A stretch of 64,000 bases of DNA, from positions 30,500,828-30,564,827 of the forward strand of contig CAIIXF020000010.1 in NCBI GenBank assembly GCA_903813345.2. Reading direction: 5' to 3'. The notes under the pieces are model-generated. The model was not told where the DNA came from and did not search any database. It was given only the letters and a program-made list of their open reading frames with translations. This DNA comes from Owenia fusiformis (lineage: Eukaryota > Annelida > Polychaeta > Sabellida > Oweniidae). Numbering within the stretch: the stretch's first letter is position 1; every line of letters starts with the position of its first letter. The position numbers were made by a program, and so were the translations under genes. This document shows, piece by piece, positions 6,001 through 59,267 of the stretch.

Positions 6001-6950
6001 TAGCACCATGATGCACCAAAATCACTCTACTGCACCAAATAGCATAATACTGCACCAAACAGCACTGTACTGCACCAAACAGCACAGTACTGCACCAAAC
6101 AGCACCATACTGCACCAAACAGCACAGTACTGCACCAAACAGCACCATACTGCACCAAACAGCACCATACTGCACAAAATAGCACCATACTGCACCAAAC
6201 AGCACCATACTGCACCAAACAGCACCATACTGCACCAAACAGCACCATTCTGCACCAAACAGCACCCTGCTGCACCAAACAGCACCATACTGCACCAAAA
6301 TCACCATACTGCACCATATTTCTCCAAACAGCACCGTACTGTACTAAACAGCACTGTACTGCACCAAACAGCACTATACTGCCCCAGGCAGCACCAAAAA
6401 GCACCACAATGCACCAAAATAACCATACTGCACCAAACAGCACCATACTGCACCAACCAGCATCATACTTCACCAAACAGCACCATACTGCACTGTTTCT
6501 TTGTAGGCAACTTACCAACCTGTCGGGAATATACACAATTTGTGTCACCCGCTCATTGTATGTATTTCAAAACTTAGCTTACTGAATAAATAAATAATAA
6601 TAAAATAATAATAATAATAACAGCACCATACTGTACTAAACAGCACCATACTGCACCAAACAGCACTATACTGCACCAAAATCACCATACTGCACCAAAC
6701 AGCACCAAACAGCACCATTCTGCACCAAACAGCACCATACTGCACCAAACAGCACCAGACATTACCAACATTCTTATAAGACCATATTTTTCCAAACAGC
6801 ACCGTACTGTACTAAACAGCACTATACTGCACCAAAATCACCATACTGCACCAAACAGCACCATACTGCACCAAACAGTACCATTCTGCATCAAACATCA
6901 CCATATTGCACCAAACAGCACTAGACATTACCAAACGTTCTAATAAGACT
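1..6950. repeat. 20-bp satellite array with higher-order repeats
   Basis: Almost the whole stretch is a tandem array of the 20-bp unit CTGCACCAAACAGCACCATA, itself two related 10-bp halves (CTGCACCAAA and CAGCACCATA match at 8 of 10 positions). Variants such as AAATCACTATA and CACCATGATG recur in fixed order and define larger blocks: a block with ACCTTGCTGCACC followed by AAATCACTCAACTG occurs near 4131, 5022 and 5392, and one with AAAAATCATCATACTG near 3045, 4735 and 5877. The consensus has no stop codon in any of six frames, so long open frames on both strands are expected by composition. No gene is supported here. The array decays from about 6610 and ends near 6950. Confidence 0.95.
6492..6612. 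mobile_element. Non-satellite insertion with A/T-rich tail
   Basis: About 120 bp unrelated to the satellite interrupts it. It begins near CTGTTTCTTTGTAGGC and ends in a TAAATAAATAATAATAA-type tail, after which the satellite resumes. A unique 5' part plus a simple-repeat tail suits a truncated non-LTR element or SINE, but no coding sequence is left. A target duplication cannot be judged in repetitive DNA. Confidence 0.45.
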
Positions 6951-8154
6951 GCACATGACATGTTTCAATTGAGTTCAAAACATTTTACCGCACTTTGAAA
7001 AAGTGCAATTTGTCATTATCCAATGTGCTGCAATGTGTTTTTTTAATTGTCAACACCATATATGGACAATTAATTATGTGTTGATTCATGTTATGATAGC
7101 AACAGTGCTTTTAGATATAGTGGTAAAACAGTAATATTTTAGGTAGAGAAACCCCATAAAACCTTGTTTTAAATTACATTGTAACAAAGATTACACAAAT
7201 AAATCAATGCAAATTTTTGAGACAACCCCTACATCTCAATGACTCATTGAAGTTACAATGACTTCAAAATCATCATGTACCTGATTAAAGTGCAAAGTTT
7301 TCTTGATTTATTTATTGTCTTAGAGGTTTGAACATAAGAAATGCTGTAATACCTATGATACAAATGTCATCCCTTCCCCCCTTCCTTATATTTTCTGTTA
7401 ATAGTTGCACTATATTTATAATGGGGGAAGGGGGAGGGGGGACTAATAAAGGTTGCATTTTCCAAATATTCTTAATTTTAAGAAGGTTTAGAGCATTTTT
7501 AGTGTTTAAGGAGTTGTATAAGCAAAATTTGAGGGTTCTAGATATTCATTTATTCAGTCAAAAACATCATTTTACGCTATTTCCATGAGATTTAGGTGTT
7601 GTTGAAGGGGGGAGGGGGGGGGGTTAAGTTGTAACAGATTTATAATTTGTTATTGTGAGATGGGGTAAAGATTAGAGCCTGCAATAAATATACCAAAACA
7701 ATTAATTTTCTGGGATCAAAAGATTTTAGATCTTAATAAATAAAAACATCCTTACAAAAAATATTATTGTGGTTGTTTTAAAACACAAAATACAATGAAA
7801 TGTAGAAGAATAAGCAAAAAAACAAAAAAAAAAAACAGACGTGAAGTCAACACCTTAAACTGTATAGAAATGCAACAAAATCAGATGGTTTATTCAAAGT
7901 TTATAGAAAAAGTAGTAAAGATGGATAGCTAAGAACAAAACTGAAGTGTCTAGACTTCATAAGTTAGTAGTTTGAGCAGACTGCTTGTTTAAGATAATGT
8001 CATAATTAATAAATGTTTTCCAACGGTAAAATGATTTCAGATATAATGAATATTTTCTTGAGTTATTGGAAACACAGTGAAATAGAATGGAGTCCTGATG
8101 TTATGCGAAAAATTCAATCTACTCCTTTGGGTTATGGTTTTACTATTCATATTC
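6951..8154. other. Non-coding stretch
   Basis: AT-rich sequence with homopurine and poly-G runs near 7420 and 7606. I see no exon with family similarity, no RNA gene and no clear mobile element. Confidence 0.6.
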
Positions 8155-8455
8155 TTAACCTCTTGAATACACAGAATGACGGATATATCTGTCACAAATA
8201 AAATCCATTTGGAACCCAGAGCGACAGATATATCTGTCACAGAATTTTTCACTAAAACTGCTCTAACTTTGGCATTTTTTATCCAATCTTCACAACTTAT
8301 GTTTTAGAATGTATGTAATGGGTCTATGGTTACTATTCTTATGAAATCAAATATCAAACATAGTGTTTTTAGATGTAAATATCCAGAAAACTAGCAGAAA
8401 ATGAAAAATGCTCTGGTTTCAAACCCTTTTTAGAGGCTGGTATTCAAGAGGTTAA
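8155..8455. mobile_element. TTAA-flanked MITE, piggyBac-type
   Basis: TTAA at 8155-8158 and 8452-8455 flanks a 293-bp element whose ends are 12-bp perfect inverted repeats (CCTCTTGAATAC and GTATTCAAGAGG). TTAA target duplication with a CC-starting terminus is characteristic of piggyBac elements. Inside are two near-palindromes, GACGGATATATCTGTCAC and GACAGATATATCTGTCAC. There is no transposase, so it would be non-autonomous. Confidence 0.7.
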
Positions 8456-8564
8456 AGGAGTTGTATATCCAAATGTTTTATCCAATGAAATTGTTTCAAT
8501 CATCCCATAACCTAATGATATCGTTAATACATACACATATTTTTGTATAACTAAAGAAACTGAC

Positions 8565-8752
8565 TAGAAGGAGGGGGGGGGGGGCTGTAGCCAGCTTTTG
8601 CAAAGGGGGATTCAGTTTAATTTGTGCAATATGGACCCAAAATCACGATATGTTGAAAAATTGCATGATTTTTAAAGATTTTTTCCAAAAGGGTTAACTC
8701 AGATACCCCAAATATCTCCTGGCTATGGGCCTACGGGAAGGGGGGGGGGGGG
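8565..8752. repeat. Degenerate dispersed repeat with G-tract ends
   Basis: Begins GGGGGGCTGTAGCCAG and ends CTGGCTATGGGCC followed by a G run. A related degenerate copy lies at 18308-18474, sharing CTGGCC, GGACC/GGTCC, AAATCAC and CTATGGGCC in order. CTGGCTACGGGCCTGG beside a C run near 12519-12553 looks like one end of the same family. Class unknown. Confidence 0.4.
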
Positions 8753-9044
8753 GTTCTATTTTGAATATAAGATATACAGAAGTTGGGGTTGAGGTATTAC
8801 AAAAATTGTACTAAATTGTATATAAGAAAAATTTGTAAACTAGGCATGATCGGAAATTTCAAGGGTGGTACGTTCATTACCACTTAATAGCTCAATGCCA
8901 AGTTTTAATTACAAATTAGAACAAATTTGATGATCTGAAACTTAGCAACATATTTTTAGTATCAAATAGTCAATGGTGTATGAAATATGAGCATGAGAAG
9001 GTTATCAAATGTATAATTGATTCTTTTATTTGGGGTTCAATGTC

Positions 9045-9380
9045 CATCTGCTCATGCTTATTTCACTCAATTTCTCTCAAAAATTTGAATGAAGTGTCTG
9101 ATTTTCTTGAATTTCTGTATAATTTAGAGTGTTGACTACATGTCTGTTTACTTTATTCCTTGTTGATTTCACTAGTTTCTCTCAAAAATTTGAATGAAGT
9201 GTCTGATTTTCTTGTATTTCTATATCATTTAATGTGTTGACTACATGTCTGTTTACTTTATTCCTTGTTGATTTCACTAGTTTCTCTCAAAAATTTGAAT
9301 GAAGTGTCTGATTTTCTTGTATTTCTATATCATTTAGAGTGTTGGCTACATTCCTGTTTACTTTATTCCTTGCTGATCCT
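9045..9380. repeat. Dispersed repeat, locally triplicated
   Basis: Three tandem copies of about 105 bp, each with CTCAAAAATTTGAATGAAGT then GTCTGATTTTCTTG, beginning at about 9076, 9181 and 9285. Single copies of the same family occur at 11402-11580, 12838-13030 and, inverted, 21063-21440. No coding capacity was seen. Confidence 0.65.
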
Positions 9381-11401
9381 CCCCCTTTACACTTTATTTG
9401 GAATTTCAAAGTATGCACCTTCACATTTTCTCATTGATTTATTGAGTTTTGCTATTGACCGTTTTAAACGAGGTTATTTTACATCTGTGATCTACTACTT
9501 TAGAGGATTTTGATCCTTGAACTTTTCTCTTATTGTAAGCAATGTTTCATTCTTACTTTTGTTTTGGCACTTGAAATAGTTATTTAAATAAATATGACTT
9601 TTACATGTATGTTAGATAAACAACTCTCACCTCGTCTATTATGTTTCTTCCTTTGTTAACTATAATTATATATACATATACATTACTTATATATAAATAA
9701 CTACTTTTATATATGTTAAGGACATTTATAAACATAGGGCTTACATTTATTTTTTTTAAATTACTAGGCTATATGGTAATTTTACATGTTCCAATAGATT
9801 TGAGGTGCAATAATTCTAGGCTTACTTGGTTGAATCACAAGTTAAGTGGTAGTTTCGGAAAAACATAGGGAGGTGAAAATGCTATGTTGACATTTTTGTC
9901 AAAATATTATTTACTGATTTGGATTTAGCTTTTGTTATTGTTATTTATTTTGTTATAGTCATTTATCTTGTTATTGTTATTTATTTTGTTATTGTTTGCT
10001 TTGTTAGGTGAGGTCACGGGATGTCACAGTTAAGAAAAAGTCAAATTAACTATGTCCCATTGTCTCTTAAAGGAGAACCATCCAAGCCTTATGACACCCC
10101 CTTCTATTAACCAAGGTATGGTTCTCGCTTGCTCTCTCGCTCCGTCCCTCCCTCTCTTTTGTTCTCTTTATTCAAACTTATTTTCGTTCACATCTACCTG
10201 ATCATTTCTATAGTTTTCCTCAATCCCCTTATTGTCATTAATCTTTCCCACTTTCATTTTAGCTATTTCAATCCCTGAGTAGCCTGATAACATTTTCAAG
10301 TTCATTCATTTAGAAAATGACAAGGCAAACTGCAATATGGTAATTTGTATTTCCAAATGAATTGTTCTACATTCATTGAAATCATGTTTTTGCCAAAAAT
10401 TCAATTATTTAAGAAATCCCTGCCGTACCAGCTGTTTATAAATTCTCAAAAAAGTTTTCCAAAAATTATGTTTTAAGATAAAGATCAGAAATGTTTGATA
10501 ATTAACAATTGAAATTCATGATAAGGGAATGTGATATACCACATTTTCAAAGGAGACTTGCATCTCCTCTGAGACACAAATAAATGTTGCATAGCTGTAT
10601 AAATATATATGTACAGTACATGTATGATCAAATTTTATTCTGCATTCACTAAACCACAGTGATATGATCTTTTAATGCAATATCACAAAATTGGATTACT
10701 AATAGAGAAAAACACAACTTCCAGTAATACCTAACCTATGTTACAGATATGTAACAGATTTGTTACACATTTTTCCAATTTGTAGATCACGTGGAAAAAT
10801 TATAATGCTTCTTGATATTGCAAAAATTGTATCTGAGCTGATTTTACGAGATTGATTGATCAGTTGCATAGAGATGGAAAGAGAATACTTTCTATATATT
10901 TATTAGAAAAGCATTTTTGATGGCAATAAATATTCAAGCTGAGACTGAGCCGTGTCAAATCAACCGTGTCAATATACTGCCCCAGACGAGCTTGACCAAA
11001 GTCATTTCTCTAAATTTTGATCTCCATCACGTCAATGTTAAAATCTATGATGCTCAAGTATTTTGAAGATTTATGAGATTCAGATAATTTTCGGTGCAGT
11101 TAGTGCAGCGCTGTGAGCTGAAAATTCCCTTTGCCATGCAATCAGGAGTAAAACCATTTTTTCTAAATTAAGGTGGTTTAAATAAAAATGATAATTCAAA
11201 TTATTTTGGCTGCCTTTAGCGCAGTGACTGGAAAATTCTGTACGAGGAAATATTGGGTCATTTTGCTTCAGTAAGTTAAATTTATCAGGAGTATGATTCT
11301 GTCAGATTTTATGGTATAAGACTGTAAAAGATGAATCAATTAATTGCCGATAAGAGCAACTTAATTAATGAATTTGAGAATCACATCAAGTCTGAAATAT
11401 T
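9381..11401. other. Non-coding stretch
   Basis: AT-rich, with a short TTATTTTGTTATTG repeat near 9935-10000. A short segment at 10076-10115 has AG before and GT after and one open frame, but nothing resembles a known domain. No other feature was seen. Confidence 0.5.
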
Positions 11402-13030: not shown

Positions 13031-13865
13031 TAGATACGATCCTGAGTGAAGGTTCCCGTAAATAGCAATTTCATCAGAGACCAACAAGAAAACACACCAG
13101 AGCAAGCAATGTAAAACCATGAAGCAATACAAAGCAACTCTAATTGAAAACATTTATATTTATTTATATTTGAAAATGAAACCATCCCATTCCCCAATAT
13201 ACCAACCTCCAAAATTATTCCGAAACTTGCACACTTTTATGTAGTCATATGTAATGATTTAATGAATGATATAAATAAAACTAATTTAACCCAAGCTTAC
13301 TGATTTGTCGATTTGTACAACTGCAGATCTTTGGTAGCCACATGCAAGTGATAACAGAAATAAAGGAGTGGTATCGATATGGTGAACTTTTTGAACACAC
13401 GTTTCTCTTAAACCAGTCATCAAAAAATTCAGAAAATTTTACATATCGTCAATTTAATGGTCATCTTTTGAATGGTAATTACGTTTGAAAAAAAAATATA
13501 CTTTTCTCTATATTGTTTTAGAAAACACATCAGACACTTATGTTCTTCATATCATATGTTAGGAATAAAATGAAACATCTATCCGAACCTCATTGAAACA
13601 AAACGACATAAACGTGTTTAGGTCTCTCAATATTGTAATAGTACAAAGGAAAGTTTGGTTGATTTTAAAAAAGTATCTTGTAAACGAAATATAAGGTTTA
13701 TCTTAATTTTTAATCATTTTTTTTGAAAAATTTTCAGAGTTGAAATTTAGATGTACATGTATAGAGATTATCCTATATCAGGTTCAGGATATTGGGATTA
13801 TCCCGAGGCCAATACCTCGGGCAAATATATTATATTGGCCAATTAGACAATTTTAGTTTTAACAA
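13031..13865. other. Non-coding stretch
   Basis: AT-rich. A small inverted motif (GGGATTATCCCGAGGCCAATACCTCGGGC split by a few bases) lies near 13794-13822. No gene is supported. Confidence 0.5.
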
Positions 13866-14520
13866 TAACTTGGACTTAGAATATTTTTTACTGGCACTTT
13901 GAAGTATTCTTTGACTTTGTTTCGGCACACATCTACCTTAAGTTGGACTTATACATTTTGTTGTTGATGATAAGTTGGACTTAGAATATTTCTTAGTGGC
14001 ACTTTGAAATATTCTTTGACTTTGTTCCGTGATACGTCTACCTGGAGTTGGACTTATACATTTCACTGTAGTTGTAACTTGGACTTAGAATATTTTTACC
14101 ATTTTCAATATTCTTTGACTTTGTTTCGGCACACATCTACCTGAAGTTGGACTTATACATTTGCTGTAGATGATAACTTAGACTTAAAATATTTCTTAGT
14201 GGCACTTTGAAATATTCTTTGACTTTGTTCCGTGATACGTCTACCTGGAGTTGGACTTATACATTTCACTGTAGTTGTAACTTGGACTTAGAATATTTTT
14301 TACTGGCACTTTGAAGTATTCTTTGACTTTGTTTCAGCACACATCTATCTGAAGTTGGACTTATACATTTTGCTGTAGATGATAAGTTGGACTTTGAATA
14401 TTTTAACCATTTGCAATATTCTTTGACTTTGTTCCGTTGTATATCTACCAGAAGTTGGACTTGGACAATTTTAGTTTGAACAATAACTTGGGCTTGGAAT
14501 ATTTTCCTACTTTGAAATAT
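13866..14520 (+). repeat. Diverged higher-order array, period about 105 bp
   Basis: TTGGACTTAGAATATT recurs at about 13870, 13975, 14079, 14183, 14283 and 14388. Within each period are two or three degraded GGACTT-spaced subunits of 33 to 42 bp, matching the spacing of the cleaner array that follows. This looks like the older, decayed edge of the 14520-17253 minisatellite. Confidence 0.7.
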
Positions 14521-17253
14521 TCTTGGACTTGGCCGGAAGAGGCTACCTTGAAGAAGATTCATTCGACTTATCTGGAAGAGGCTACTTTGAAGAAGACGAT
14601 TCATTAAACTTAGCCGGAAGAGGCTACCTTGAAGAAGATGATCCATTAGACTTAGCCGGAAGAGGCTACCTTAAAGAACACGATCCATTGGACTTAGCCG
14701 GAAGAGGCTACTTTGAAGAAGACGATTCATTAAACTTAGCCGGAAGAGGCTACCTTGAAGAAGATGATCCATTAGACTTAGCCGGAAGAGGCTACCTTAA
14801 AGAAGACGATCCATTGAACTTAGCCGGAAGAGGCTACTTTGAAGAAGACGATTCATTAAACTTAGCCGGAAGAGGCTACCTTGAAGAAGACGATCCATTG
14901 GACTTAGCCGGAAGAGGCTACTTTGAAGAAGACGATCCATTGGACCTAGCCGGAAGAAGCTACCTCGAAAAAGACGATCCATTGGACCTAGCCGGAAGAG
15001 GCTACCTTGAAGAAGACGATTCATTAAACTTACCCGGAAGAGGCTACCTTGAAGAAGATCCATTGGACTTAGCCAGAAGAGGCTACCTTGAACAAGATGA
15101 TTCATTGGACTTAGCCGGAAGAGGCTACCCTGAAGAAGAAGATCCATTGGACTTAGCCTGAAGAGGCTACCCTGAAGAAGAAGATCAATTGGACTTAGCC
15201 GGAAGAGGCTACCTTGAAGAAGACGATCCATTAGACTTAGCCGGAAGAGGCTACCTTGGGAAGAAGACGATCCATTGGACCTAGCCGGAAGAAGTTACCT
15301 TGAAAAAGACAATCCATTGGACATAGCTGGAAGAGGCTACCTTGAAGAAGATCCATTGGACTTAGCTGGAAGAAGCTACTTTGAAGAAGAAGATCCATTG
15401 GACTTAGCCGGAAGAGGCTACCTTGAAGAAGACGATTCATTAAACTTAGCCGGAAGAGGCTACCTTGAAGACGATCCATTGGACTTAGCCGGAAGAGGCT
15501 ACCTTGAAGAAGACGATTCATTAAACTTAGCCGGAAGAGGCTACCTTGAAGAAGATCCATTGGACTTAGCCAGAAGAGGCTACCTTGAAGAAGATCCATT
15601 GGACTTAGCCAGAAGAGGCTACCTTGAAGAAGAAGATCCATTGGACTTATCTGGAAAAGGCTACCTTGGGAAGAAGACGATACATAGGTCTTAGCCAGAA
15701 GAGGCTACCTTGGGAAGAAGACGATCCATTGGACTTAGCCGGAAGAGGCTACCTTGGGAAGAAGACGATACATTGGACTTAGCCGGAAGAGGCTACCTTG
15801 GAAAGAAGACGATCCATTAGACTTAGCCGGAAGAGGCTACCTTGGGAAGAAGATGATCCATTGGACTTAGCCGGAAGAGGCTACTTTGGGAAGAAAACGA
15901 ACCATTAGAATTAGCTGGGAGAGGCTACATTGGGAAGAAGACGATCCATTAGACTTAGCCGGAAGAGGCTACCTTGGGAAGAAGACGATCCATTGGACTT
16001 AACAGGAAGGGGCTACCTTAGGAAGAAGATGATCCAATGGACTTCGCCGAAAGAGGCTACCTCGAAGAAGATGATCCATTAGACTTAGACGGAAGAGGCT
16101 ACCTTAGGTGGCCACAGAGGATTACCAGAGGGAGAAGATCCATTGAGCTTAGCCACAAGAGGTTACCTGAGGAAGAAGATCCACTGGACTTAGCCACAAA
16201 AGGTTACCTGAGGAAGAAGATCCATTGGACTTGGCCACAAGAGGTTACCTGAGGAAGAAGATCCATTGGACTTGGCCACAAAAGGTTACCTGAGGGAGAA
16301 GATCTATTGGACTTAGCCACAGAGACTTACCAAAGGGAGAAGATGATCCACTAGACTTAGCCACAAAAGGTTACCTGAGGGAGAAGATCTATTGGACTTT
16401 GCCACAAAAGGTTACCTGAGGGAGAAGATCTATGGGACTTGGCCGTAGAGACTAACCAAAGGGAGAAGACGATCCACTGGACTTAGCCACAAGAGGTTAC
16501 CTGAGGAAGAAGATCCATTGGACTTGGCCACAAAAGGTTACCTGAGGGAGAAGATCTATTGGACTTAGCCACAGAGACTTACCAAAGGGAGAAGATGATC
16601 CACTAGACTTAGCCACAAAAGGTTACCTGAGGGAGAAGATCTATTGGACTTTGCCACAAAAGGTTACCTGAGGGAGAAGATCTATGGGACTTGGCCGTAG
16701 AGACTAACCAAAGGGAGAAGACGATCTACTGGACTTAGCCACAAGAGGTTACCTGAGGAAGAAGATCCATTGGACTTGGCCACAAAAGGTTACCTGAGGG
16801 AGAAGATCTATTGGACTTGGCCACAGAGACTAACCAAAGGGAGAAGACAATCTACTGGACGTAGCCACAAGAGGTTACCTGAGGAAGAAGATCCATTGGA
16901 CTTGGCCACAAAAGGTTACCTGAGGGAGAAGATCTATTGGACTTGGCCACAGAGACTAACCAAAGGGAGAAGACAATCCACTGGACTTAGCCACAAAAGG
17001 TTACCTGCGGGAGAAGATTTATTGGACTTGGCCACAAAAGGTTACCTGAGGGAGAAGATCTATTGGACTTGGCCACAGAGACTTACCAAAGGGAGAAGAC
17101 GATCCACTGGACTTAGCCACAAGAGGTTACCTGAGGAAGAAGATCCATTGGACTTGGCCACAAAAGGTTACCTGAGGGAGAAGATCTATTGGACTTGGCC
17201 ACAGAGACTTACCAAAGGGAGAAGACGATCCACTGGACTTAGCTACAAGTGAT
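14521..17253 (+). repeat. 42-bp minisatellite encoding a 14-residue repeat
   Basis: Units are mostly 42 bp with some of 39, 44 or 45 bp. In the main phase they read GRGYLEEDDPLDLA and variants. 14521-16110 is one class; the 44-bp units at 15650-16030 break the frame. 16110-17253 is a second class (ATKGYLREK, EEEDPLDLA) arranged in higher-order repeats of 126 and 252 bp, both multiples of three. No single frame is open across the array; the repeat phase moves through all three frames. It may be a decayed coding repeat, a set of exons, or a minisatellite with chance coding capacity. Confidence 0.85.
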
Positions 17254-17520
17254 TACCTGAGGGAGAAGACGAGCCACTTAGATGACAACAAGATAACTGC
17301 TGACTGTCAATGTATGGAACTGGATGTCCCCTTCTTTGTTCTAGTAGTAGGCGGTATACTGTTTATATTGATCTGTTTAATGGTGGTACTATGCACTCAG
17401 GTTTGCATAAGCACTACGGAGGAAGAAGCAACTGAACATTCTGCTCAGGTACCGCCTGTACCAGTTCCAACCTTAGAGTCGCTGTTAGCTTTTAACCTGA
17501 GTACAGTGAATTTTATGTGA
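17176..17520 (+). CDS. Possible C-terminal exon: repeat unit plus transmembrane anchor
   Basis: In this frame, open from just after a stop at 17173-17175, the last minisatellite unit is read in its conserved phase (EDDPLDLATSDYLREK). It continues through a short Cys-containing linker (TADCQC) into a hydrophobic stretch of about 22 residues starting at FFVLVVGGILFILICL, then an acidic tail with TTEEEATEHS and a proline-rich VPPVPVP, stopping at 17518-17520. This layout, repeat ectodomain then one membrane span then short tail, suits a surface protein. The 5' boundary is unknown, frames are broken upstream, and I recognise no family. It could be a gene end or a pseudogene. Confidence 0.4.
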   Translation, partial: GRRSIGLGHRDLPKGEDDPLDLATSDYLREKTSHLDDNKITADCQCMELDVPFFVLVVGGILFILICLMVVLCTQVCISTTEEEATEHSAQVPPVPVPTLESLLAFNLSTVNFM

Positions 17521-19737: not shown

Positions 19738-19845
19738 TGGTGGACAGATGAGGAGAGTGTCATTTGCAGCAGCCTTGCTTCAAGAGCCAGAACTGTTGAT
19801 ACTTGATGAGCCTACTGTAGGAGTTGATCCATTACTGAGACAAAG
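19738..19845 (+). CDS. ABC transporter exon: signature and Walker B
   Basis: Acceptor TTTCCAG, donor AAG|GTTAG. It reads [15 protein letters not shown] then [20 protein letters not shown], which is the ABC signature, Walker B with catalytic Glu, and D-loop. One leading base completes a Ser codon from an unseen exon; two trailing bases (AG) are completed by the exon at 22185. Its 3' part is the source of the mini-exon array that follows. Confidence 0.92.
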
Positions 19846-22800
19846 GTTAGTAGCCTTCTCTACCTTTCTACCCCTCCCTCCTCTACCCCCCCCCCCCCTC
19901 CTCTACCCCCCCCCCCCTCCTCTACCCCCCCCCCCCCCTCCCCTCTCTCTAGGCCCTGCTCAGAACTGTTGATACTTGATGAGCCTACTGTAGGAGTTGA
20001 TCCATTACTGAGACAAAGGTTAGTAGCCTTCTCTACCTTTCTACCCCTCCCTCCTCTACCCCCCCTCCTCTAACCCCCTCCCCTCTCTCTAGGCCCTGCT
20101 CAGAACTGTTGATACTTGATGAGCCTACTGTAGGAGTTGATCCATTACTGAGACAAAGGTTAGTAGCCTTCTCTACCTTTCTACCCCTCCCTCCTCTACC
20201 CCCCCCCCCCTCTATCCCCCCTCCTCTCCCCTCTCTCTAGGCCCTGCTCAGAACTGTTGATACTTGATGAGCCTACTGTAGGAGTTGATCCATTACTGAG
20301 ACAAAGGTTAGTAGCCTTCTCTACCTTTCTACCCCTCCCTCCTCTACCCCCCCCCCCCTCCCCTCTCTCTAGGCCCTGCTCAGAACTGTTGATACTTGAT
20401 GAGCCTACTGTAGGAGTTGATCCATTACTGAGACAAAGGTTAGTAGCCTTCTCTACCTTTCTACCCCTCCCTCCTCTACCCCCCCTCCCCTCTCTCTAGG
20501 CCCTGCTCAGAACTGTTGATACTTGATGAGCCTACTGTAGGAGTTGATCCATTATATTACAGAGACAAATGTTAGTGGCCTTCTTCTTTTTTTAACAAGA
20601 TGATAAACTTTATCCAATGACAAGTGAGGTTTCAGGTACATAACAGCTCGATATAGAATCAATATCTTGGGGTAGCAGGACATTGTATCTCCCGCTGTGT
20701 ATCTCCCACTCCAATATTCCCAGGAAAAATGTTTTTGTTATTTTAAGTGTCAAAACAGTCATATTTGTGAGGGTAATTCACTGGAATAGCAAAACTGTAT
20801 TTAGACATCCAAGGAAGAAAAATAATAACTTTGACATTATTACTGATCTAAAGTTCAAGAAACATAGGCTTTAGCAGAGAAACATGAATCTTTAAAACAG
20901 AAAGGACTTAAAAACCAGCCAAATGCATATCATAGAATAAACTTTTTATGGGGTATATTCCTCAGGAAACATGATATCTTACCTCAAACCCTCCAAGCCC
21001 TTAGTAAGATATCTATAATTCCCTGGTATATACCCCATCCAAAACTTCCCATAACATAACCCTCATGAACATAATCCTGTCATACTGAACTGAAATACCA
21101 ATTGAGACATACATTGTTCTATACTTGGAATATTAAGTTTCTCTCTCTGAAGTAATTGTATGTTACCATTTAACTTCATATTATTAGTGTGATCAGAAAT
21201 ACAGGGATAATTATTCTTTACGTATGTAATTGCAACACCGTAAGAAAAATCCACGTCACATTTTAAAATGCAAAATAGAGTACAAAAGAGAGGAAATAGC
21301 AAGGAATAACGTAAACAGGCATGTACTTGGCACTCTAAATTGTATAGAAATGAAAGAAAATTTGACTGTTCATTCAAATTTTAGAGAGAAAAATTGAGAA
21401 AAAGAGAGATATTGTATGGATTAATGATAAGAGCAGACGGCAGTTTATACACAAGTGAACAGTAAAACATGTTTATTTTGCAAAATTTATTTTCTTGAAT
21501 AAAACTGATCGTCCAATCTGTCTTTATTCAAGATTGTAACATCTTTCATTTAAATAATCAAGTAAAAACTTGATGGATTAGTAAAATTATCACGATGCAA
21601 AATGTTGAGAAATTCAGAATTGATGAAAATAACACGACTTATGAACTTGGCATGTTTTACTGTACTTCTCACATGACATATCCATTTTCTATTTGTATAC
21701 AGAAATATTTTCTAGAAATAGAAAATGTTTTTCCTATTGAGGATTATTATCCTATTTATCAATTTCCTTGTACAAAAAGAGAACAGCAGCATTATACAAT
21801 AATATTTTACACTAACTGGGTTGTCCGTAATTCTTATCTATAAGAAGCCTGAGTTATTGTCATTAAATGGTAAATATAACAATTTTTATTCTACCCTTTA
21901 TGTGATATTTTGTTCTTTTATTTTTTCTATGTAAAATGTTGCTTGTTTGTACATGTTTGTTTGTGTATGTTGATTATACATGATTAAGATTCCATAATCT
22001 TGTATTGTTGCTTGTTAGTTTGTTTGTTTGTTTGTTTTACCATTTTTGATAATTCTTTACAGTGTTGTATTTTGCATTGCAGGATTTGGCAATTCAATAT
22101 CAAGATAGCACAATGAAGTATGTGTTTGTTTGTTTGTTTGTTTGTTTGTTTGTTTCAATAGTTATACATATTTTGTTGTTGTAGGATTTGGCAACACATG
22201 ATCCAGATTGCTCAGTCAAGCAACACAACAATCATTATTACAACTCACTATGTTGAGGAAGCAAAGCAAGCAGATATGGTTTGTTTGTTTGTTTTTGTTG
22301 TTCGGTTCCTTGATACTTCGTAATGATTATGATCAATTTTTGCATTTTATGAATATACTAATTTTACTTTCAAAGAGGCAGAAAGGCCTACCTTTCCCCA
22401 AAAATCATTTTTAAAGAGTCTTAAGAAGAGCTTGATGCAAAATAAAAAAGATTTTTTCCAAACTAGTATAATGCTTACATTTTTTTTTTTTTAAATAGAC
22501 ACACATATATACAATGCATGAGTGGGTGACACTTTAAAAAGTGTGTACTCCCAACAATACATGTATATACAAATACATGTAATCTCTTTGTTCGCAATTA
22601 AGTTGATTTTATTCAACCCATATCTAGGTTGGGCTCATGAGAAATGGAAGACTTCTTGCTGAGTGTTCTCCAAGTGCCCTGATAGAGAAATATGAAATGC
22701 AGGTATGGATATTTGATTTATCCCATGCATGCCTATATAAAGCTTTTGAGAGATTTGCATTGGTGGTTTTAAAATGCTGCCATCTTTTTATCAACACATT

Positions 22801-25800
22801 CTATTAAACTCTGATTTTTACAAAAAAGAGAGTTCCCATTGATTATGTTAGTTACAGTGTACATATAGAGGTTATTTAATGGTAGGAATAGACTATGGAT
22901 TTTATTCTGTGGGAAAATATGAAATTGCCCAAGGAAAGTTTGTTGACTGATGGCCATAGCCCAAGTGTCAGTTTGATATTTTCTGGGCTCATGAGGCTCA
23001 TCATATTTTCTGAGGACAATATTATATTTTCTCAAAGATAAAATTAATGTTCCATCAATAGCCTATTTATTCCAAAATATTAGTTTTGTATATCATCACT
23101 CACAACCAAATGATGGTGATATAAAATGATTCAATTTGATTAATCATATGTAATATTTTCAACAATTTTTTGACCAGGAATAGTTCTGATACGGAATCTG
23201 ATACAGGATTTTGGCTGATATTGGATCTGATACATGATCTTTTGAATATCAGTTATATTCCCTGTTTATTTCCCAGGGAAAACACATTGCTATAGAAATG
23301 AAAATGACTATTCATTTAAGTATTTTAGAGTTACAGTAAAACCTGTTTCAAATAACATGAAGTCAATTGACTATGAAATGTTTCCCTTCAAGAGGTATTT
23401 CACTTAAAGAGGTGTTCCACCTGAAGAGGTGTTTCACTTAAAGAGGTGTTCCACCTAAAGAGGTGTTCCACCTAAAGAGGTGTTTCACTTAAAGAGGCGT
23501 TCTACCTAAAGAGGTATTTCACTTAAAGAGGTGTTCCACCTGAAGAGGTGTTCTACCTGAAGAGGTGTTCCACCTGAGGAGGTGTTTCACTTAAATGTAA
23601 TCCACTAGACAGGTTTTATCGTATTAAGGGTGAGAATAGAAATACTGTTTTGGTCTTAGGTGTCTTATTTATTTATAGTCTCTGGAGGCTGTGTACCTAA
23701 AACTCTGTGAAAAGGACCAAATTCAGGATATATATGAAGCTGAGGAAAACATAGTCAGCTCCAGACCATCCCCCTCTACACATGTAAGTGTTTTAATTGT
23801 ACCTTTCAAAGTGTGTAATAATTGATGAAAAACAATCTTTTTTTGAATAAACTCAATTTTTGTTTGTTCAGTGTAAAGTTCAAGGTCACATCTCAGAACG
23901 AGGCTAGGGTAGGAGAAACCCCTATTTTTCATATGTCTGCTTATTCAGTACTGTCAACCCCCAAAGATTTTCTCGCAGGACAGATTTTTTAGACCCAGTG
24001 CCAAATATTCGCTGGATTTCACGGGACATCCACCTAAATTTGCGGTATTTCGCGGGACATTTAAGGGATTTGCGTGATTGCGGTAATAGGTCATATTTTG
24101 ATCAAATTCGCGAGATTTTGCGGGACAATTCGAGGGACAAACATGCTAATTGCGGGAAAGTTAACAGGGTTACCACCAAAGACTTCATAGAGGGACAGAT
24201 CTTTTTAGACAAAGTGCCCTAAATTCGCGGGATTTTGCGGGACATCCACCTAAATTTGCGGGATGTTGCAGGACATTCTTGAAAGGGATTTACGTGATTG
24301 GGGCTTAATGTAAAAGTTCTCAAATCAAACTTTCAGATACTGATTTATCAAATATAATGCACTTAACTTAAGTAAACGTCAACACAATTCCACACAATAC
24401 ACATAGAAATATTATTAAACTACGGGATGGTCAAAAATATGGAAATCCTAATACCATTTTGCTAATATCTTTGTCATTTTAAAAACTAACTCCCTGATAT
24501 TTTACACTTTTGTACATCATTCAATTTGCTTCCAGCCTAAGTTATTTCACGACCATCATATTGATAGTCACAATGTTACAGTACTCTAAAGAACATGCCC
24601 AGTGGCCACTATTGGGTTGTGAGGAAACTTGACTCATCGTTTAAAATGTCCCTACCTGTCGGGATATGGCAGAGATAGAGTATATGAGAATGACCTCGGG
24701 ACAATTGCAAATCTCAAAAGTGAGATCATTTGTGTCATTCAGGCCATACCTGCTGAGGAATGCGTTTGGATTATTGACAACTGCAATGGCCAAATCTGAA
24801 GCATGTTATTCTAAATGCTGTAAAATTGTGTCTATCAGTCCGATGGTCATGAAATATGGTAGGGTGGTAGAAAATTTAATGATGTACAAATGTGTGAAAT
24901 ATCAGGGAGTAATTCCTTAAAGTGACAAAGATATAAGGAAAATGCAGGGTTTCCATTTTTGACCACCGGTATCAAAAAACCATGCTTTATTTGTGAGTAC
25001 CGTAATCCAACATGAAATTCAAAAACTCTGAACAATACTTTGCACTTATGGTGTTCGTGACCAACTATGAAAGATTTACCCCCCATAGTGTTACATATTA
25101 AAATGTACCTATTCATATTGGGGTTTGATTAATCTACATCAAAATATATAAATATTATAGGGAGTCAGGTTTCTTTTCGAGATATCAGTGTCCATTTATT
25201 GGAACTCGCGTTTGCTAACATTTGCTCAGTTCTTAGATGAAGGCCATGACACGCGTAGTAAAAAGGCCAACGTTGGAACTATACGTGACAAACATCCCTA
25301 TTTTCGTAATTAAAATGAAAATTGCACTCTTCTTCTTTATTTTGATACCAAATAACGGCATACTAGGGAAGCCAACTACAGTATGGTGTTATTTGGATCA
25401 GAATCACAGTTTTATAAATGGACTATATGCTCTTTTCAAAAGCAGTCTTCGATGATCTGATGCACTGGGAGTTTGGCAGCACTTTTCAAATTAGGTAAAC
25501 TTTACTCCTCAAAAGCGCAAAAACTTAGCTTCTTAATCACAAGATAATCAAAATTATTTGGCCTCGGGGATTGTTACAATTTTGAAAATTCGCGGAGGTC
25601 AAAGCCGACATTCGCGGGACTTCGCGGGACATTTCGGGACACGCGAATTAGCCAAATTTTGATCAAATTCGCGGGATAATCCCGTCATTCGCGGGACATT
25701 TGACAGCTCTGGCTTATTAGAAATATAAACAATTTGCACTAAAATGACTTGATTTGTGCTGTTGGCCATGTGTGTCCGTGTCTGTCTGGGTGGGGGTGCC

Positions 25801-28800
25801 ACATAAGTCATAAATTCAATTTGAAATTTTTACAGATGCAAGAGCTCATAAGGGTCTGAAGTAAACAAAACATTTTATTTAGCTTTTAGTTCCAATATTA
25901 AGTGTGGAGAATATAATCACACTACTGTATAATAATAGTTATAGAAAAAAATAAATAAAAATATGTGTTTTAAGTTTATTTCAAAACCTGTCACTGATAA
26001 TATCTTGCCCTTATACTTATATTACTCAAATACCATTGGCTCGATTTTGTTCATATTTTGTAAACATATGCCCTATGGAGCCAGAAGTTCTGCTCGAAAG
26101 CAGACTTTCAAAATGGCCACTTAATTGTTCAAAAATTTTAGCGCCAATTTTACAGTAACTTAGGTACAATATATAAAATTGTTATAGCGATATGTTTTAA
26201 ATGTAAAGAAAAAATTATATAGGACATTATAATAAAGCTAGAAGTAAGATATTTCAGAAGCACACTGTATAATGACACTTTTGGGAATAGGTGGCCATTT
26301 TGAAACAGCCACCATTCGCATGGCCTCCATGCATATGTGTTATTTTACTTCATTTTTACTATACACTGTCGCTCAAAATTCATATTTGATATATAATACT
26401 CATAAGCATGGCACATTTTCTTACGACATTTTGGCTAGTAGCCATTTTGAAAAATGGCTGCCATTTACATGTAATTGTGTGCAATTTTATTGAAATTCTA
26501 TATGTGCCTACATGTACCTCTAAGCATATTACACTTTCTGATGACAATTTGGCTAGTGAGCAACCATTTTAAAAATGGTGGCCATTTTTGTGTGTTATTT
26601 TACGATTTTTCTCATATGCTTCGTTTGTTAAAATGCCAGACATGGCTGTTCGATGGGATTTGCTACGCTTTGGTGTTGCTGTTGTCTAGTTGATATTCTT
26701 TTATCAAAATCATGATATGGCCATAAAATTAGAAACATGTTACATGTGTCGTGTTACAGACTGAGCCTACACATGGACTGGTTCATGTTTTCGATGTAGG
26801 TGTGTTGAGTTTCAAATGATCTACCTATGGAAACTATTTAGAATGTTTCATTTATTAAATTGTTATATTGATTGATACAGAAGACTGCAGAAAAATTACA
26901 AAACAACTTGTAGGAAAATCATTGCATTGACTAAAATTATCAGATTGATGATATGGGATCACCCATTTTTATGAATAACATTGCCCAGCCAGTTCATTAT
27001 GAAAAATTAAATGCACTCTGAAATAATTTCCATTCATCTACCCAAAAATAAACGTGTTGGAATACTATAGGCTGATTCACTCTCAGTGACACCTGGTATG
27101 TTTGAACATTTTGCAACTTGCATCATAATTGACACAATCAAGTGAAAATAGAAGTGACATTCACAGCAGATTTTATTGAATGAATAATTGAAGCTAACTG
27201 GTACATGTAACTTGTCATTTTGAACTTACTGGAAACATTATGAATATCTTCCGAGCCAAATTCCTTATCATTTTTATCATTATCATTGTCATTGGGACTT
27301 TATACTTATTAAGCATAGCACCTCGGCTAGTTCAAGAACTGAAAGAATCTACCTCACTGGCCGCTCAGATAAAATGGGAAAATACAGGCGTAAAACCAGA
27401 AATAGAATTATTTCCTCCACCTCCCAAAGCGCATGTAGATACTAAAGGCAATTTTGGAGCAGTTAAAACATCAGGGATGAATCAAGCATCAAGAGAAAAT
27501 CCTAAAACATCGGAGAAGATAATGTTAAAAGAACACTTTGAGCAAATAATTAATGCATGGGGAAACATTACAACAAACCAACAGAAGTATACAGTCTTAG
27601 ACTTTCAAAATATCTGTGACACCCATTCTGATGACCTGATCCTATTACAGATAGAACATATGTATGATCTCGCTGGAATAAACACGAGTCAACGATTTAA
27701 TAACAAGAGTTTGAAATTTATGTCCAATATCCTTGGACCGCGTTTATACAATTCAAAGAGATTCGAGTATAACATACAGTGGTCATATGATAGTTTCCGT
27801 CATAATGTTTATATGAAGATCTTGGAAACTTTTTTGGGAAAACCAACGTATGGAGGTAGCAGCTTTCGGATTCTTGTACAGGGTGTCCATAGTTTTATGT
27901 GTAATGTGAAGGATAATTTCAATGGGATATATCATGTATGTTGTCCCTTTGTACCACCATGTAGTAACATTACTGTTGCATTGGTATACACTTCTTATGG
28001 GGCATTCCTTGATATACCAACAATTCGACCATTTTCATTGATTCTTGCTCAAATAAAGAATTGCCGACTTAATAATGGGGATCAGCTGCCGCATGAACAA
28101 TTCGAGACTGATATGATAAATAAGGTTCAGTGCGTGAGAGATCCAAGATTCCTTTCTAAACATGGGAGATGGATATTACACGATGGAAGTTTAAAATGGG
28201 GATTGCACTCAAAGTGTATTTCAAAGATGTTGACCCCGACAGAGCTCAGAACTTGTTTTCAAAAATTAAGAAACATAAATTGCTACGGAGACTCTCATCT
28301 CCTTAATACAATGACTTATTTTAAACATCTGATTGAAAATAAATCAGTTTATAATGAAACTCTCAGAAATTGGACATTTGATAATAATCATCTTTACTTT
28401 CATTGGTCAACCAGTGTGCGTGAAGTTTCACAAAATCTGCTTAAAGATTATAATCCAACACTTCAAAATATTAAACCAGCTGTGGATCAAACTGGAGATC
28501 AACGTTACAGTACTATAATTTTTGATAATGGAGCTTGGGATATGTACAAAGGGACATTGTCTGACTATCTCAATTCTATTCAAACCTTACTTGTGCCACT
28601 TTTAAGAAAATATCGCCAAAATCCAACATGGAGCAATACACGTATCATCTGGTTTGGTAATCCAGCATGGCCTCATAAACCAAATTACATGACTCAAGGA
28701 CACCATGAGAGGAATGACTTTAGAATTGCTGTTGCAAATGCTCTTACTGAGTCACTCACCAAGGACCTTGGCGTTGACTTCATAAATCAGTTAACCCCCT

Positions 28801-31800
28801 CGAGTATAAGGTCCAGTGAGAATGTATGTACTATACATTATATCTGTACAAAGAAAGTCAAACATACACACAAATCTATCGGACATGTGGGGATTGTTAT
28901 AGCTCACATGTTGTTTGAGAACATGTGTAGAATATAGTGATCAATGATATTGGAATGAAGAACACTGAGGAGAAGTGATTCTTTATAAATGAGTATAGCC
29001 AGTCCTCCAGATCTGAGTTTCACCGATTTTATAGGTGTATATTTGCATCATTATTAGAGAAATTGTGTTTGTTTGATGTGGTTTGAATGACTAAATAGTC
29101 ATTATGAAAGAAAATCCAAAAATATATTTTCCCGTATCTCAGGCCATGGAGCCTGAATAGGGCTATCCATAGTAGGATTTGTCCTTCCTTAGGGGATCAA
29201 TCCACGTATAAATTTAATTAAAATTTAATTTGCTGAATCAGGTAATTAGTAAGTGATTCATATTAGATTAAGGTGGGTATGCCCTAATGAATATTCGAAC
29301 ATGACTGTATTCATGCCTTCTATAGTCTGTAAACAAAGCCACCATTTCGCTCGAGGTATATTCGTGAAGAATACCCCTGGTAATACGTGTAATGTGTGAC
29401 GTTTTAACGGCGGGTCGTAGTAATGGCGGACCATAGTGAATATTCGAAACATTTTGGTTAGTTTTCATGTTCGAATCGTAATATAGACCTCAGAGCAGGG
29501 GTAATATCGTCGAATACACCCCTTAAGGCTAGGCACAAAAGCTTTCGAACCCCTCACTCCCTTCGGTCGTTCCCCTGCGGGGTGTATTTGACAATATAAC
29601 CCTTGCTCTTCGGTCTATATTTCTTAATTATTGGCCCGAGTTCTTCAACATCTTGTTGCAATGATGTAACCATCTGAAAAGTTAATCCAAGGACTGAGGT
29701 TAATCATACGATGATATGAATTATTGGATTGTCATTCAAAACACATTATGCAGCTGAACTGTGATGCTTTTTTCTTACAAATCCATGAGGAATTTATTTT
29801 CTTTTTGCATAGATCATTGTATAAATGTTATATATCTCTGTTTTCCAAACTAGTATCATTTGGTTCCTTTTGTGAATTACCTATATTTATGATACATCCG
29901 CTCATATTGCTGTTTGGTACTTGCTCGTTACATATAAAGATTATAACACAAGACAGCGTATGTTGCAGATAAAATGCACATTGGAAGTGCAATTAGATGT
30001 TATTCATAATTATACAAGTTGGGTCTAAAACAACTGATAGGTGGACTATGTCCGTTGAACTACCCTATCATATGTAAAAAAAAAGTGTAATGCCTTGGTC
30101 ACAGTTGCTCCAATTTTCACTACGGCACCTGGCTGATTGAGTATTTTGTTCAAAATTGAATACAATATTGAACAAGCCGGGCGCCGGCCGATGGATCGGA
30201 GCAAATGTGACCCAGGCACATAAGATGTAATTCATACTCAGTCTTGCAAGAATACATGCAACTTCAATCAGTAGTCAGTGTCACCTTCTCAATATTAAGG
30301 CAATTGAATTGAAATGAAAAGCATCATATTTGCATTACTTAAAATTTTTAATTGGATTATGATTTCACATTGGATAATCAATATTAAAAAATTACCCAAT
30401 TGTCATAATTTAGTGGAGCGATCAATCACATTTGATCAATTAATTGATCAACAACAACAATAGAACAAATCAATAGAATATGTCATTCACATATCAAAAC
30501 CATATGTGACATATGCAATACGCAGAGCTGTCAAGTGTCCCGCGAATGGCGGGATTATCCCGCGAATTTGATCAAAATTTGGCTAATTCGCGTGTTCCGC
30601 AATGTCCCGCGAAGTCCCGCAAATGTCGGCTTTGACCTCCGCGAATTTTCAAAATTGTAACAATCCCCGAGGCTAAATAATTGTGATTATCTTGTAATAT
30701 AAGAAGCTAAGTTTTTGCGCTTTTGATCGAGGAGTAAAGTTTACCTTATTTGAAAAGTGCTGCCAAACTCCCAGTGCATCAGATCATCGAAGACTGCTTT
30801 TGAAAAGAGCATATAGTCCATTTATAAAACTATGATTTTGATCCAAATAACACCATATAGTTGACTTCTCAAGTACCAAGTAAGCCGTTATTTGGTATCA
30901 AAATAAAGAGGAAGAGTGCAATTTTCATTTTAATTACGAAAATAGGGATGTATGTCACGTATAGTTCCAACGTTGGCCATTTTACTAAGCGTGTCACGGT
31001 CTTCATCTAAAAACTGAGCAAATGTTAGCAAACGCGAGTTCCAATAAATGGACACTGATATCTCGAAAAGAAACCTGACTCCCTATAATTTGATGTAGAT
31101 TAATCGAACCCCAATATGAATAGGTACATTTTAATATGTAACACTATGGGGGAGTAAATGTTTCATAGTTGGTCACGAACACCATAAGTGCAAAGTATTG
31201 TTCAGATTTTTTTAATTTCGTGTTGGATTACGGTACTCACAACTAAAGCGTGGTTTTTTGATACAGGGTGGTCAAAAAATGGAAACCCTGCATTTTCCTT
31301 ATATCTTTTTCACTTTAGGAAATTACTCCCTGATATTTCACACATTTGTACATCATTCAATTTTCTACGACCCTACCATATTTCATGACCATCGGATAGA
31401 CACAATTTTACAGCACTTAGAATAACATGCTTCAGATTTGGCCATTATCGCGCTGTAGGCATAACAGCACAGTTGTCAATGAGCCGAATGCATTCCTCAG
31501 CAGGTATGGCCTGAATGACACAAATGATCTCACTTTTGAGGTTTGCAATTGTCCTGAGGTCATTCTCATATACTCTACATGTATCTCTGCCATATCCCCA
31601 CAGGTAGGGACATTTTAGACGATGAGTCAAGTTTCCTCACAACCCAATAGTGGCCACTGGGCATGTTCTTTAGAGTACTGTAACATTGTGACTATCAATC
31701 TAATGGTCGTGAAATAAATTAGGCTGGAAGCAAATTGAATGATGTACAAAAGTGTAAAATATCAGGGAGTTATTTTTTAAAATGACAAAGATATGAGGAA

Positions 31801-34800
31801 AATGGTATTAAGGTTTCCATATTTTTGACCACCCTGTAGTTTAATAATATTTCTATGCGTATTGTGTGGAATTGTGTTGACGTTTACTTATAAGTTAAGT
31901 GCATTATATTTGATAAATAAGTATCTGAAAGTTTGATTTGAGAACTTTTACATTAAGCCCCAATCACGTAAATCCCTTTCAAGAATGTCTTGCGACACCC
32001 CGCAAATTTAGGTGGATGTCCCGCAAAATCCCGCGAATTTAGGGCACTTTGTCTAAAAAAATCTGTCCCTCTATGAAGTCTTTGGTGGTAACCCTGTTAA
32101 CTGTCCCGCAATTAGCGTGTTTGTCCCTCGAATGGTCCCGCGAAATCCTGCGAATTTGATCAAAATTGGACCTATTAGCGCAATCACGCAAATCGCTTAA
32201 ATGTCCAGCGAAATCCCGCGAATTTAGGTGGATGTCCCGCGAAATCCCGCGAAGTTTTGGCACTGGGTCTAAAAAATCTGTCCCGCGAGAAAATCTTTGG
32301 GGGTTGACAGTACTGCAACACGTGGATGTGGAATGATCTTCCAAAGGCAATTAAAGATAAGACCACTTTTTATGTCCCACCCACATAGTGTGGGGCCATA
32401 TTGTCGGCCTAGGCGCGTCCGTCCGTCCGTCTGTCTGTCCGTCTGTCTGTCTGTCTGTCCGTCTGTCTGTCCGTCTGTCTGTCCGTTTGTCCGCACGTCC
32501 GGCAGTTTTCTCCAAAACCGCTACAGATATCACCTTCAAATTTTCAGGTATAACTTATGAGTGCATACAGATGTGGATAAAGAAAAATTAACTCGATACC
32601 AACTTCCTGTCGGCCATTTTGAAGTCAAATGCTAAAATCCTTGTCTGCAAACTGTAAGAAAAACGGCTTCACAGTTGCATTTAAAACTTTAACATCTTGT
32701 TCAGCTCACTTCATTCTAGATCTGATTAGGTTTTGGACCTGTAAGCTCAGTCATGTCAGCCATTTTGAATGTTTTAAGAAAAGTTAGCGCACGATAATAC
32801 TTTGTATCATATTGAATGGTGTTATTCAGTTTTCATACTGAAACTATTTAGTAGCTTTATAAATAATTTCAGGTGTATTTTGTTGTAAAAGCCTATGTTA
32901 TTGTTAACAGTAGTTATATGTGATAATTTTGTTGAAAGAAATTAGCAAAAACTCATAATCACTTTTTTATTGTCGGCCATTTTGGATTTTTCGGTCCTAA
33001 AATCTCATGTGTAAAGTCTAGTCTACACGTTTTCAGGTGAACCGTTTGGTGGATCAATTTCAAATTTTCAGGGATGATTCTTAGTATGAAATCTAGATCT
33101 GATTAGTTTTTGGGCATTCTGGGTAAATGTCAAGGCAGCCATTTTGGATTTTCCGTCCTTAAATCTTGTCAGTAAAGTCTTGTCTACTTGTTTTCAGGTG
33201 AACCATTTGGTAGATCAATTTCAAATTTTCAGGGATGATTCCCAGTATGAAATACTAGATCTGATTAGTTTTTGGGCATTCTAGGTAAATGTCATGGCAG
33301 CCATTTTGGATTTTCCGTCCTCAAATCTTGTCTGTAAAGTCTTGTCTACGCATTTCCAGGTGAACCGTTTGGTAGATCAATTTGAAATTTTTAGGGATGA
33401 TTCTCAGTATGAAAATCTAGATCTCATTAGTTTTTATGCATTCTGGATAAATGTCAAGGCAGCCATTTTGGATTTTCCGTCTTAAAATCTTGCCCGTAAA
33501 GTCTTGTCTACGCGTTTTAAGGTGATCCGTTTGGTAGATCAATTTCAAGTTTTCAGGGATGATTCTTAGTATGAAAATCTAGATCTGATTAGTTTTTGGG
33601 CATTCTGGGTAAATGTCAAGGCAGCCATTTTGGATTTTCTGTCCTAAAATCTCGTCTGTAAAGTATTGTCTACACATTTCCAGGTGAACTGTTTGGTAGA
33701 TCAATTTCAAATTTTCAGGGATGATTCTTAATATGAAAATCTAGATCTCATTAGTTTTTATGCATTCAGGATAAATGTCAAGGCAGCCATTTTGGATTTT
33801 CCGTCTTAAAATCTTGCCCGTAAAGTCTTGTCTACGCGTTTTTAGGTGAACCTTTAGGTAGATCAATTTCAAATTTTCAGGGATGATTCTTAGTATGAAA
33901 ATCTAGATCTGATTAGTTTTTGGGCATTCTGGGTAAATGTCAAGGCAGCCATTTTGGATTTTCTGTCCTAAAATCTTGTTTGTAAAGTTTTGTCTACGCA
34001 TTTCCAGGTGAACCGTTTGGTAGATCAATTTCAAATTTTCAGGGATGATTCTTAGTATAAAAATCTAGAACAGATTAGTTTTTTGGCATTCTGGATAAAT
34101 GTCAAGGCAGCCATTTTGGATTTTCGGTCCTCAAATGTTGTCTCTAAAGTCTTGTTTACATGTTTTCTGGTTAACTGTGTGACGGATCAATTTCAAATTT
34201 TCAGGGGTGCCTCTTAGTATGAAAATCTAGAACTGACTAATTTTTGGGCATTCTGGGTAAATTTTAAGGTGGCCATATTGGATTTTCCCTCCTCAAATTG
34301 TGTCGTTAAAGTCTTGTCTACTCATTTTTAGGATAACCATTTGATGGGATCACCCATAGGTGGGGACATTTTGTACACATTTGTGTTCTTGTAATCTTTT
34401 CAAATTTGAATTGAAGAGACATTTGTTTAATCAAAATAAAAGGTTTCAGAAACTGTATTATTGCAGCGACCGCAAAGTTAATATAATCCATGCGCGGTTT
34501 AGATTAGGCCTCACGCAACTGAATTTGCATTTATTATCGCACCCTCAGGTGCTATATTGTAATCAGTTTGCCGGGCGGGCGATTGGGCGGGCGGGCGATT
34601 GGGCGGGCGGGCGGGCGTTTGGGCGGGCGGGCATCTGGGTAAATGTTAAGGCGGCCATTTTGGATTTTCCGTCCTAAAATCTTGTCTGTCAAGGCTTGTC
34701 TACAGGTTTCCAGCCAAACCGTTTGAGGGATTCATTTGAAATTCTCAGGGATGTTTGTACCTATGAATGTTTAGACTTGATTAGTTTTTCGGCATTCTGG

Positions 34801-48370: not shown

Positions 48371-48639
48371 AAATAAAGCTATTGACTCTTGACAGGAATC
48401 CCAAAATACATGTATTTGAATATGAAATCATTCTCGATACATGTGGAACTTTGTGCATTTATGGTACCTGGAATACAGCAATAAAATATGATTTACCTGG
48501 TGACATTCTTGATGTTTACAGCTGACACAGTGAATGCATTTGTCTGGGAAGAGGAAGTTCATGTACACTCCCCTTCATAAATTTGGCAACCGGAGATTGA
48601 AAGCTTATTTTGTCACCACATATTGTTATGTTCTCCAAT

Positions 48640-57027: not shown

Positions 57028-57312
57028 GTTTTTTACTATAGCTCAAAATTCATAATTGATATGTGAATACTCATAAGCATAGCAAATTTTCTTAAGACAT
57101 TTTGGCTAGTACACGTAGGTGGAAATGAAAGGTTTGAAGTATGGCTGCCATTTACAAGTAATTGTGACACTTGGTATGTTAGAATATCTTGTAATTTGCA
57201 TCATAATTGACAATCGAATTGGAAAAATAGTTATGACAATTACAGCAGATTTTATTGAATGAATAAATGAAGCTAACTGATAACTTGTCATTTTGAACTT
57301 ACTGGAAACACC

Positions 57313-58989: not shown

Positions 58990-59267
58990 TGATCAATGGA
59001 GTTTGACAATACTGGGAGGAGGTCCGTTTTAAATGAGTAAAGTTGGACATCAAGATCTGTCAATATATGCATCATTATTGTAGAAATAGTGCTTGTTTGG
59101 TGTGGTCACACTGAACGAAAATTCCCAAAATATATTTTCCACATATCTCAGTTCATGGGCACCCAAATAAGGCTATCTATAGTAAGATTTGTCCTTTCCA
59201 AGGGAATCCACGTATAAATTTAATTTGCTGAATCAGCTAATTAGTAAGTGATTCATATTAGATTAAG

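Follow-up and report, generated by a model that had tools for sequence, protein, structure and literature searches.

The tandem array that follows exon 4 of an ABC transporter gene in the window (the whole stretch of 64,000 nucleotides analysed here) is a real and well-formed member of a known, little-studied kind of element, the mirage. Mirages are described in amphioxus as minisatellite tandem duplications of intron-exon boundaries, found in Adh3 and in the globin genes BflGb6 and BflGb9 (PMC3087553, in the part cited here). In the array studied by us the units likewise span the boundary, and a complete exon remains whose frame stays intact if everything else is skipped. We think that the normal transcript probably skips all of the array and that its copies are without function. 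The sequence-only reading of this DNA had noticed the array; its naming as a mirage and the presence of similar arrays at exons 5, 13 and 14 of the same gene go beyond that reading.

Exon 4 lies at positions 19738-19845 of the plus strand (108 nt, phase 2-2), as judged from its AG and GT edges, its frame and its collinearity with the PDB structures 8yzp and 9ju6, and we take its motifs to be the tail of the signature, Walker B and the D-loop. As first reported, its 3' part recurs five more times together with the donor, so that six occurrences of a common core start at 19788, 19961, 20101, 20249, 20381 and 20508, with spacings of 173, 140, 148, 132 and 127 nt (TRF scores of 783, 954 and 1064, by period). 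Four of the extra copies are exact mini-exons of 66 nt on the plus strand (copy 1 at 19953-20018, copy 2 at 20093-20158, copy 3 at 20241-20306 and copy 4 at 20373-20438), each preceded by AG, followed by GT and with phase 2-2, which bears out the symmetric phase noticed before. The last, fifth copy at 20500-20570 on the same strand is altered: it has 71 nt, is out of phase, and would bring a premature stop if included. Every mini-exon holds 8 other nucleotides in addition to the 3'-terminal 58 of the exon's 108 nucleotides, and its acceptor arises at the junction between units and is absent from the original exon 4; the earlier description of a repeated exon part with its own acceptor is therefore corrected. 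Copies 1-4 are mutually identical over the 66 exon nucleotides and the following 42 intron nucleotides, and the original exon 4 equals them over 58 exon and 42 intron nucleotides. The last copy carries TATTACAG in place of CTG (by eye) and a weaker donor, changed from AAG/GT to AAT/GT. Apart from these changes, variation among the units is confined to the C/T-rich tract that precedes the acceptor, with homogeneous inner units and a diverged edge unit. The five plus-strand spacers (19846-19952, 20019-20092 and 20159-20240, of 107, 74 and 82 nt; 20307-20372 and 20439-20499, of 66 and 61 nt) are C-rich, run from GT to AG, hold 6-8 A apiece with the splice-site A counted, and each present a G-quadruplex-type motif on the minus strand. 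In multiplying a donor site, the array is like the minisatellite of IFI6 (6-16), which has short units and, as far as is known, repeated splice donors only.

The array might also be an error of the assembly, either in its copy number or as a whole, since C runs are hard to sequence and a single assembly was available. We consider this very unlikely: length and pattern differ from spacer to spacer, the array sits in a 37-Mb contig with no N in the stretches read, and arrays of the same kind occur at other exons. In a search of the 498-Mb assembly that skipped simple repeats, the array was matched in full once, besides three shorter matches of 38-60 nt.

Within the inner units, exon and intron sequence are identical to the same degree, and the coding part thus shows no trace of selection. 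This also bears on the recent expansion proposed before, for which the near identity of the copies is confirmed, while expansion is indistinguishable from homogenisation. In our opinion, a tandem duplication would have run across the boundary, taking in the 3' part of exon 4 with its donor and the very start of intron 4; unequal exchange or replication slippage, perhaps aided by the C/G-rich tract, would then have expanded and homogenised the array. Each unit junction happens to place a pyrimidine run and an AG before the copied exon part, and in this way every unit comes to resemble a complete small exon. The normal transcript would join 19845 directly to 22185 and treat the whole array as intron; some leaky inclusion of mini-exons is likely, which would be harmless or be removed as faulty mRNA.

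Judged by its predicted protein, the host gene is an ABCH-type half transporter, in which an NBD precedes an ABC2-type membrane domain. It comprises 18 exons over about 179 kb, which give a single open frame of 680 aa when joined with all mini-exons skipped. This protein matches ABC_tran and ABC2_membrane_3, and it scores 660.8 bits against 9ju6 and 186.5 against ABCA3 among the chains listed. The alignment to 9ju6 is collinear, with no insert at the junction of exons 4 and 5, and the NBD piece is nearest to PDB ABCG23-like proteins (8yzp); we assume that these ABCG23-like structures, 8yzp and 9ju6, are insect ABCH proteins. As the skipped frame is collinear with solved structures and free of inserts, a normal protein needs the mini-exons to be skipped. 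The gene looks intact at the level of its predicted exons and, with every copy skipped, is not broken by the array. Searches of the window and of the 40 kb upstream of it gave no Walker A, but a broken gene or pseudogene was ruled out, as this motif was located 148 kb upstream, with contig and strand the same and the phase matching. It belongs to exons 1-3, which also contain the Q-loop and occupy C10:30370299-30372139, 148.4 kb upstream and outside the window. The intervening intron 3 (C10:30372140-30520564) measures about 148.4 kb. Within it, open stretches of 14-aa repeats occupy window positions 14523-17519, with a possible membrane segment by eye.

Exon 5, the true 3' partner of exon 4, is placed at 22185-22278 on the plus strand, and further coding exons follow on that strand at 22628-22702, 23679-23783, 39461-39570, 40341-40503, 41821-41924, 42826-42899, 43656-43771, 44063-44133, 44460-44548 (exon 13), 46518-46621 (exon 14), 47222-47294, 47425-47511 and 48156-48371, the last of them with the stop. 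The exon at 39461-39570 was positioned by eye and phase, and the numbering of exons 13 and 14 predates its discovery; for some edges another AG or GT lies 3-4 nt away. Pfam and PDB searches of raw window frames, one of which covered frame 1 of positions 1-9999 only, failed to detect the membrane domain, whose exons were located with an ABCH query sequence. An intron of this gene also holds a long, intronless open stretch, seen by eye at about 27241-28937 with a copy at 57164-59272, which may be NXPE-like.

The splice signals of the array are the main evidence against simple skipping. Scores were obtained with a simple weight matrix of general frequencies, untrained on this genome, and many sites of the ABCH-type gene were left unscored, their edges having been entered 1-3 nt off. 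The mini-exon acceptors score 6.3-8.8, at the 99.1-100th percentile of all AGs in the window, in comparison with 3.6 (96.7th percentile) for the true acceptor of exon 5, which is also exceeded by a decoy acceptor before that exon (4.8). Copies 1-4 have donors with the same score as the real donor of exon 4 (4.5), and that of the last copy scores 1.2. By site strength alone, some inclusion of the mini-exons is thus expected. Every in-frame mini-exon would add 22 residues, which corrects the number given previously, and the computed product would have 702 aa with one mini-exon and 768 aa with four, the frame remaining open; the products with two and three are obtained by arithmetic. Inclusion of the last copy would lead to a stop after residue 299 (all copies) or residue 211 (last copy alone). 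This copy shifts the frame, so that the in-frame maximum is five Walker B copies, the original and four more; the range of one to five that had been put forward keeps its upper limit, although the fifth extra copy is not part of it. The aligned structure shows nothing that would correspond to a second Walker B and D-loop directly behind the first; the earlier view was that such copies have no obvious place in an NBD.

It could be proposed that the mini-exons are often spliced in and that the resulting mixed transcripts lower or tune the functional output of the gene, through in-frame products with 2-5 Walker B segments that would be unable to form a normal NBD and through stop-bearing products made with the last copy. 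The strong acceptors on all five copies, the full-strength donor on four of the five, the spacer lengths of 61-107 nt, the frame that stays open with one or four copies and the stop given by the last copy all agree with this proposal. Nevertheless, we regard it as unlikely, as amphioxus mirages, in which many units carry AG and GT, are reported not to disturb splicing (cited parts of PMC3087553 and PMC3902484). Moreover, with so few A in the spacers the branch points may be poor, which is one possible reason for skipping. That the array, variable in length, consists of true cassette exons, with 1-4 Walker B mini-exons spliced in according to animal or tissue and their number set by the allele, seems to us quite improbable.

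Selection of the array as a cassette for useful NBD variants, in the manner of mutually exclusive tandem exons, would fit its symmetric phase and open frames. Such exons are used in place of one another (PMC9013439, cited part) and, like the mini-exons, are tandem exon copies, whereas here partial copies stand beside a full exon. Mutually exclusive tandem exons were rejected for this array, the copies holding only the 3' 58 of 108 nt and 8 other nucleotides. The inner copies are incomplete and identical to each other, they would insert another Walker B and D-loop and leave the first in place, and a length of 66 has a 1-in-3 chance of being a multiple of three; furthermore, the copies of exon 14 run into a stop. 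For these reasons a selected cassette is, in our opinion, extremely improbable. Elsewhere in the assembly, there is a stretch on the minus strand at C9:37986009-37994334 where about a dozen matches within 8.3 kb all cover Myosin_head positions of about 18-84; this cluster of whole exons perhaps represents mutually exclusive myosin exons. For the array of exon 4, skipping remains our best guess, and a function of the mini-exon copies is unlikely.

Four boundaries of the ABCH-type gene carry arrays, those of exons 4, 5, 13 and 14, all on the plus strand. Exon 5 has its acceptor edge repeated once, in degenerate form, at 22077-22118 (76% over 42 nt), with a stop in the exon frame. The acceptor edge of exon 13 is present in four copies 47-52 nt apart at 44259-44459, and that of exon 14 in four copies at 46011-46517, mostly in units of about 89 nt. 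In three of the four exon-14 copies the acceptors score 7.7-8.2, in comparison with 8.2 for the real exon 14, and the fourth copy is without AG. The region has also undergone a tandem segmental duplication, in which positions from about 26084 to 53301 recur as pieces from 55081 to about 83466, most of them 79-97% identical, the last 19.5 kb or so lying outside the window. The duplicate carries the membrane-domain half of the gene, with an in-frame stop in the last exon, and the exon-4 core was not found in the 20 kb examined beyond the window. With the real exon counted, the array of exon 14 comprises 5 copies within the window as against 17 in the duplicate, even though the DNA adjoining the two arrays is 97% identical, and the array of exon 13 has 5 and 6, respectively. 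The difference between 5 and 17 copies in the paralogous arrays of exon 14 means that the copy number of this array is unstable.

The frequency of such arrays at exon edges was compared with that at other exons of the assembly. Edge copies occur at 4/17 exons of the ABCH-type gene and at 1/47 other exons (Fisher p 0.015, post hoc and with the exons of one gene treated as independent), where the 17 tested are without the exon at 39461-39570 and include one edge 3 nt off and many 1 nt off. The 47 control exons belong to ABC and myosin genes, some sharing a gene, and come from nine of 12 loci (three ABCH loci were dropped), 20 places hand-picked from two lists of 25 matches, and the first 18 of 92 matches; the test would miss copies beyond the matched part plus 30 nt. 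The sole control with arrays is an NBD exon of an ABC gene around C9:38603735 (locus L012), ABCA-like by its motifs, which has them on both sides, with edges judged by eye. At this locus, arrays of 41-nt and 58-nt units flank the exon (L012:1349-1515 and 1590-1764), and the 58-nt units carry AG/GT. Together with the arrays at other ABCH exons and those in the downstream duplicate, this locus rules out a unique oddity.

The window is rich in minisatellites: 23 merged TRF arrays with a period of at least 20 cover 16,802 of its 64,000 nt (26%), at a density of 3.6 per 10 kb, compared to 2.3 in the control loci. Very dense minisatellites were observed at 1-6921, 13865-17269, 32976-35146, 42170-42753 and 55954-56910. 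Arrays that touch an ABCH exon by at least 15 nt number 2 (15 exons), against 2.7 by random placement, and within 19-49 kb 2/11 arrays lie on exons, against 2.3 expected; in these counts TRF places the beginning of the exon-4 array at 19871, past the exon itself, and does not report the exon-5 pair; adding both raises the observed number to 4. An enrichment of arrays on exons is thus unsupported by random placement, whereas the comparison of 4/17 with 1/47 points the opposite way. Since random placement already gives 2.7 arrays on exons, the dense local minisatellites may be cause enough.

Several known systems help in placing the array. Amphioxus mirages affect both 5' and 3' exon edges, with units of 10-160 bp and AG/GT in many units; two haplotypes differ in unit number (6 and 3), homogenisation affects the inner units but not those at the edge, and RT-PCR suggested that regular splicing is undisturbed (PMC3087553, cited part). 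PGBD5 has been added as an amphioxus mirage, and troponin C is cited (PMC3902484, cited part). As far as these sources go, the exon-4 array resembles amphioxus mirages in its boundary-spanning units with AG/GT, its unhomogenised edge unit and the complete exon that is kept. It differs in that four units form whole exons in phase, each with an acceptor and a donor, that four boundaries of one gene are hit, that the host is probably an annelid, and that one spacing (173 nt) exceeds the range of 10-160 bp. An annelid is suggested by three matches to Eryth_link_C, a domain of the linkers of annelid giant haemoglobin, which fall within 15 kb on C6 and all exceed the family cut-off (best 38.1 bits). 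A literature search for mirages with annelids gave nothing beyond amphioxus. In human segmental duplications, internal tandem repeats at exon-intron boundaries change gene structure and activate cryptic splice sites, and minisatellites at such boundaries may form novel introns (PMC2812944, cited part); those repeats are backed by transcripts. Intron gain by tandem duplication has been described for the AGGT model, ATP2A1 and potato RdRp, with new introns in use (PMC4974935, cited part). There too, splice signals are carried along in the duplication and new intervals from GT to AG arise between the copied exons, although in our array the AG arises at the unit junction.

If the host is rightly taken for an annelid, mirages occur outside cephalochordates, which is apparently new, as are, apparently, units that form complete in-phase exons with acceptors outscoring the real one. 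What distinguishes this case is the combination of complete in-phase units with strong sites and of four affected boundaries in one gene, which suggests that a single gene can hold several mirages with its frame kept. We think that it offers a natural test of splice-site choice, with five strong, near-identical acceptors nearby competing with a lower-scoring real acceptor 2.3 kb away, and that the arrays also test whether mirages give rise to new introns and exons. Were the mini-exons cassettes after all, a minisatellite would directly determine how long and how active the NBD of an ABC transporter is or, by way of the stop-bearing last copy, the dose of the transporter. If the same holds more widely, minisatellites at exon edges would frequently give rise to new exons and introns in this lineage, in a process that is still under way.
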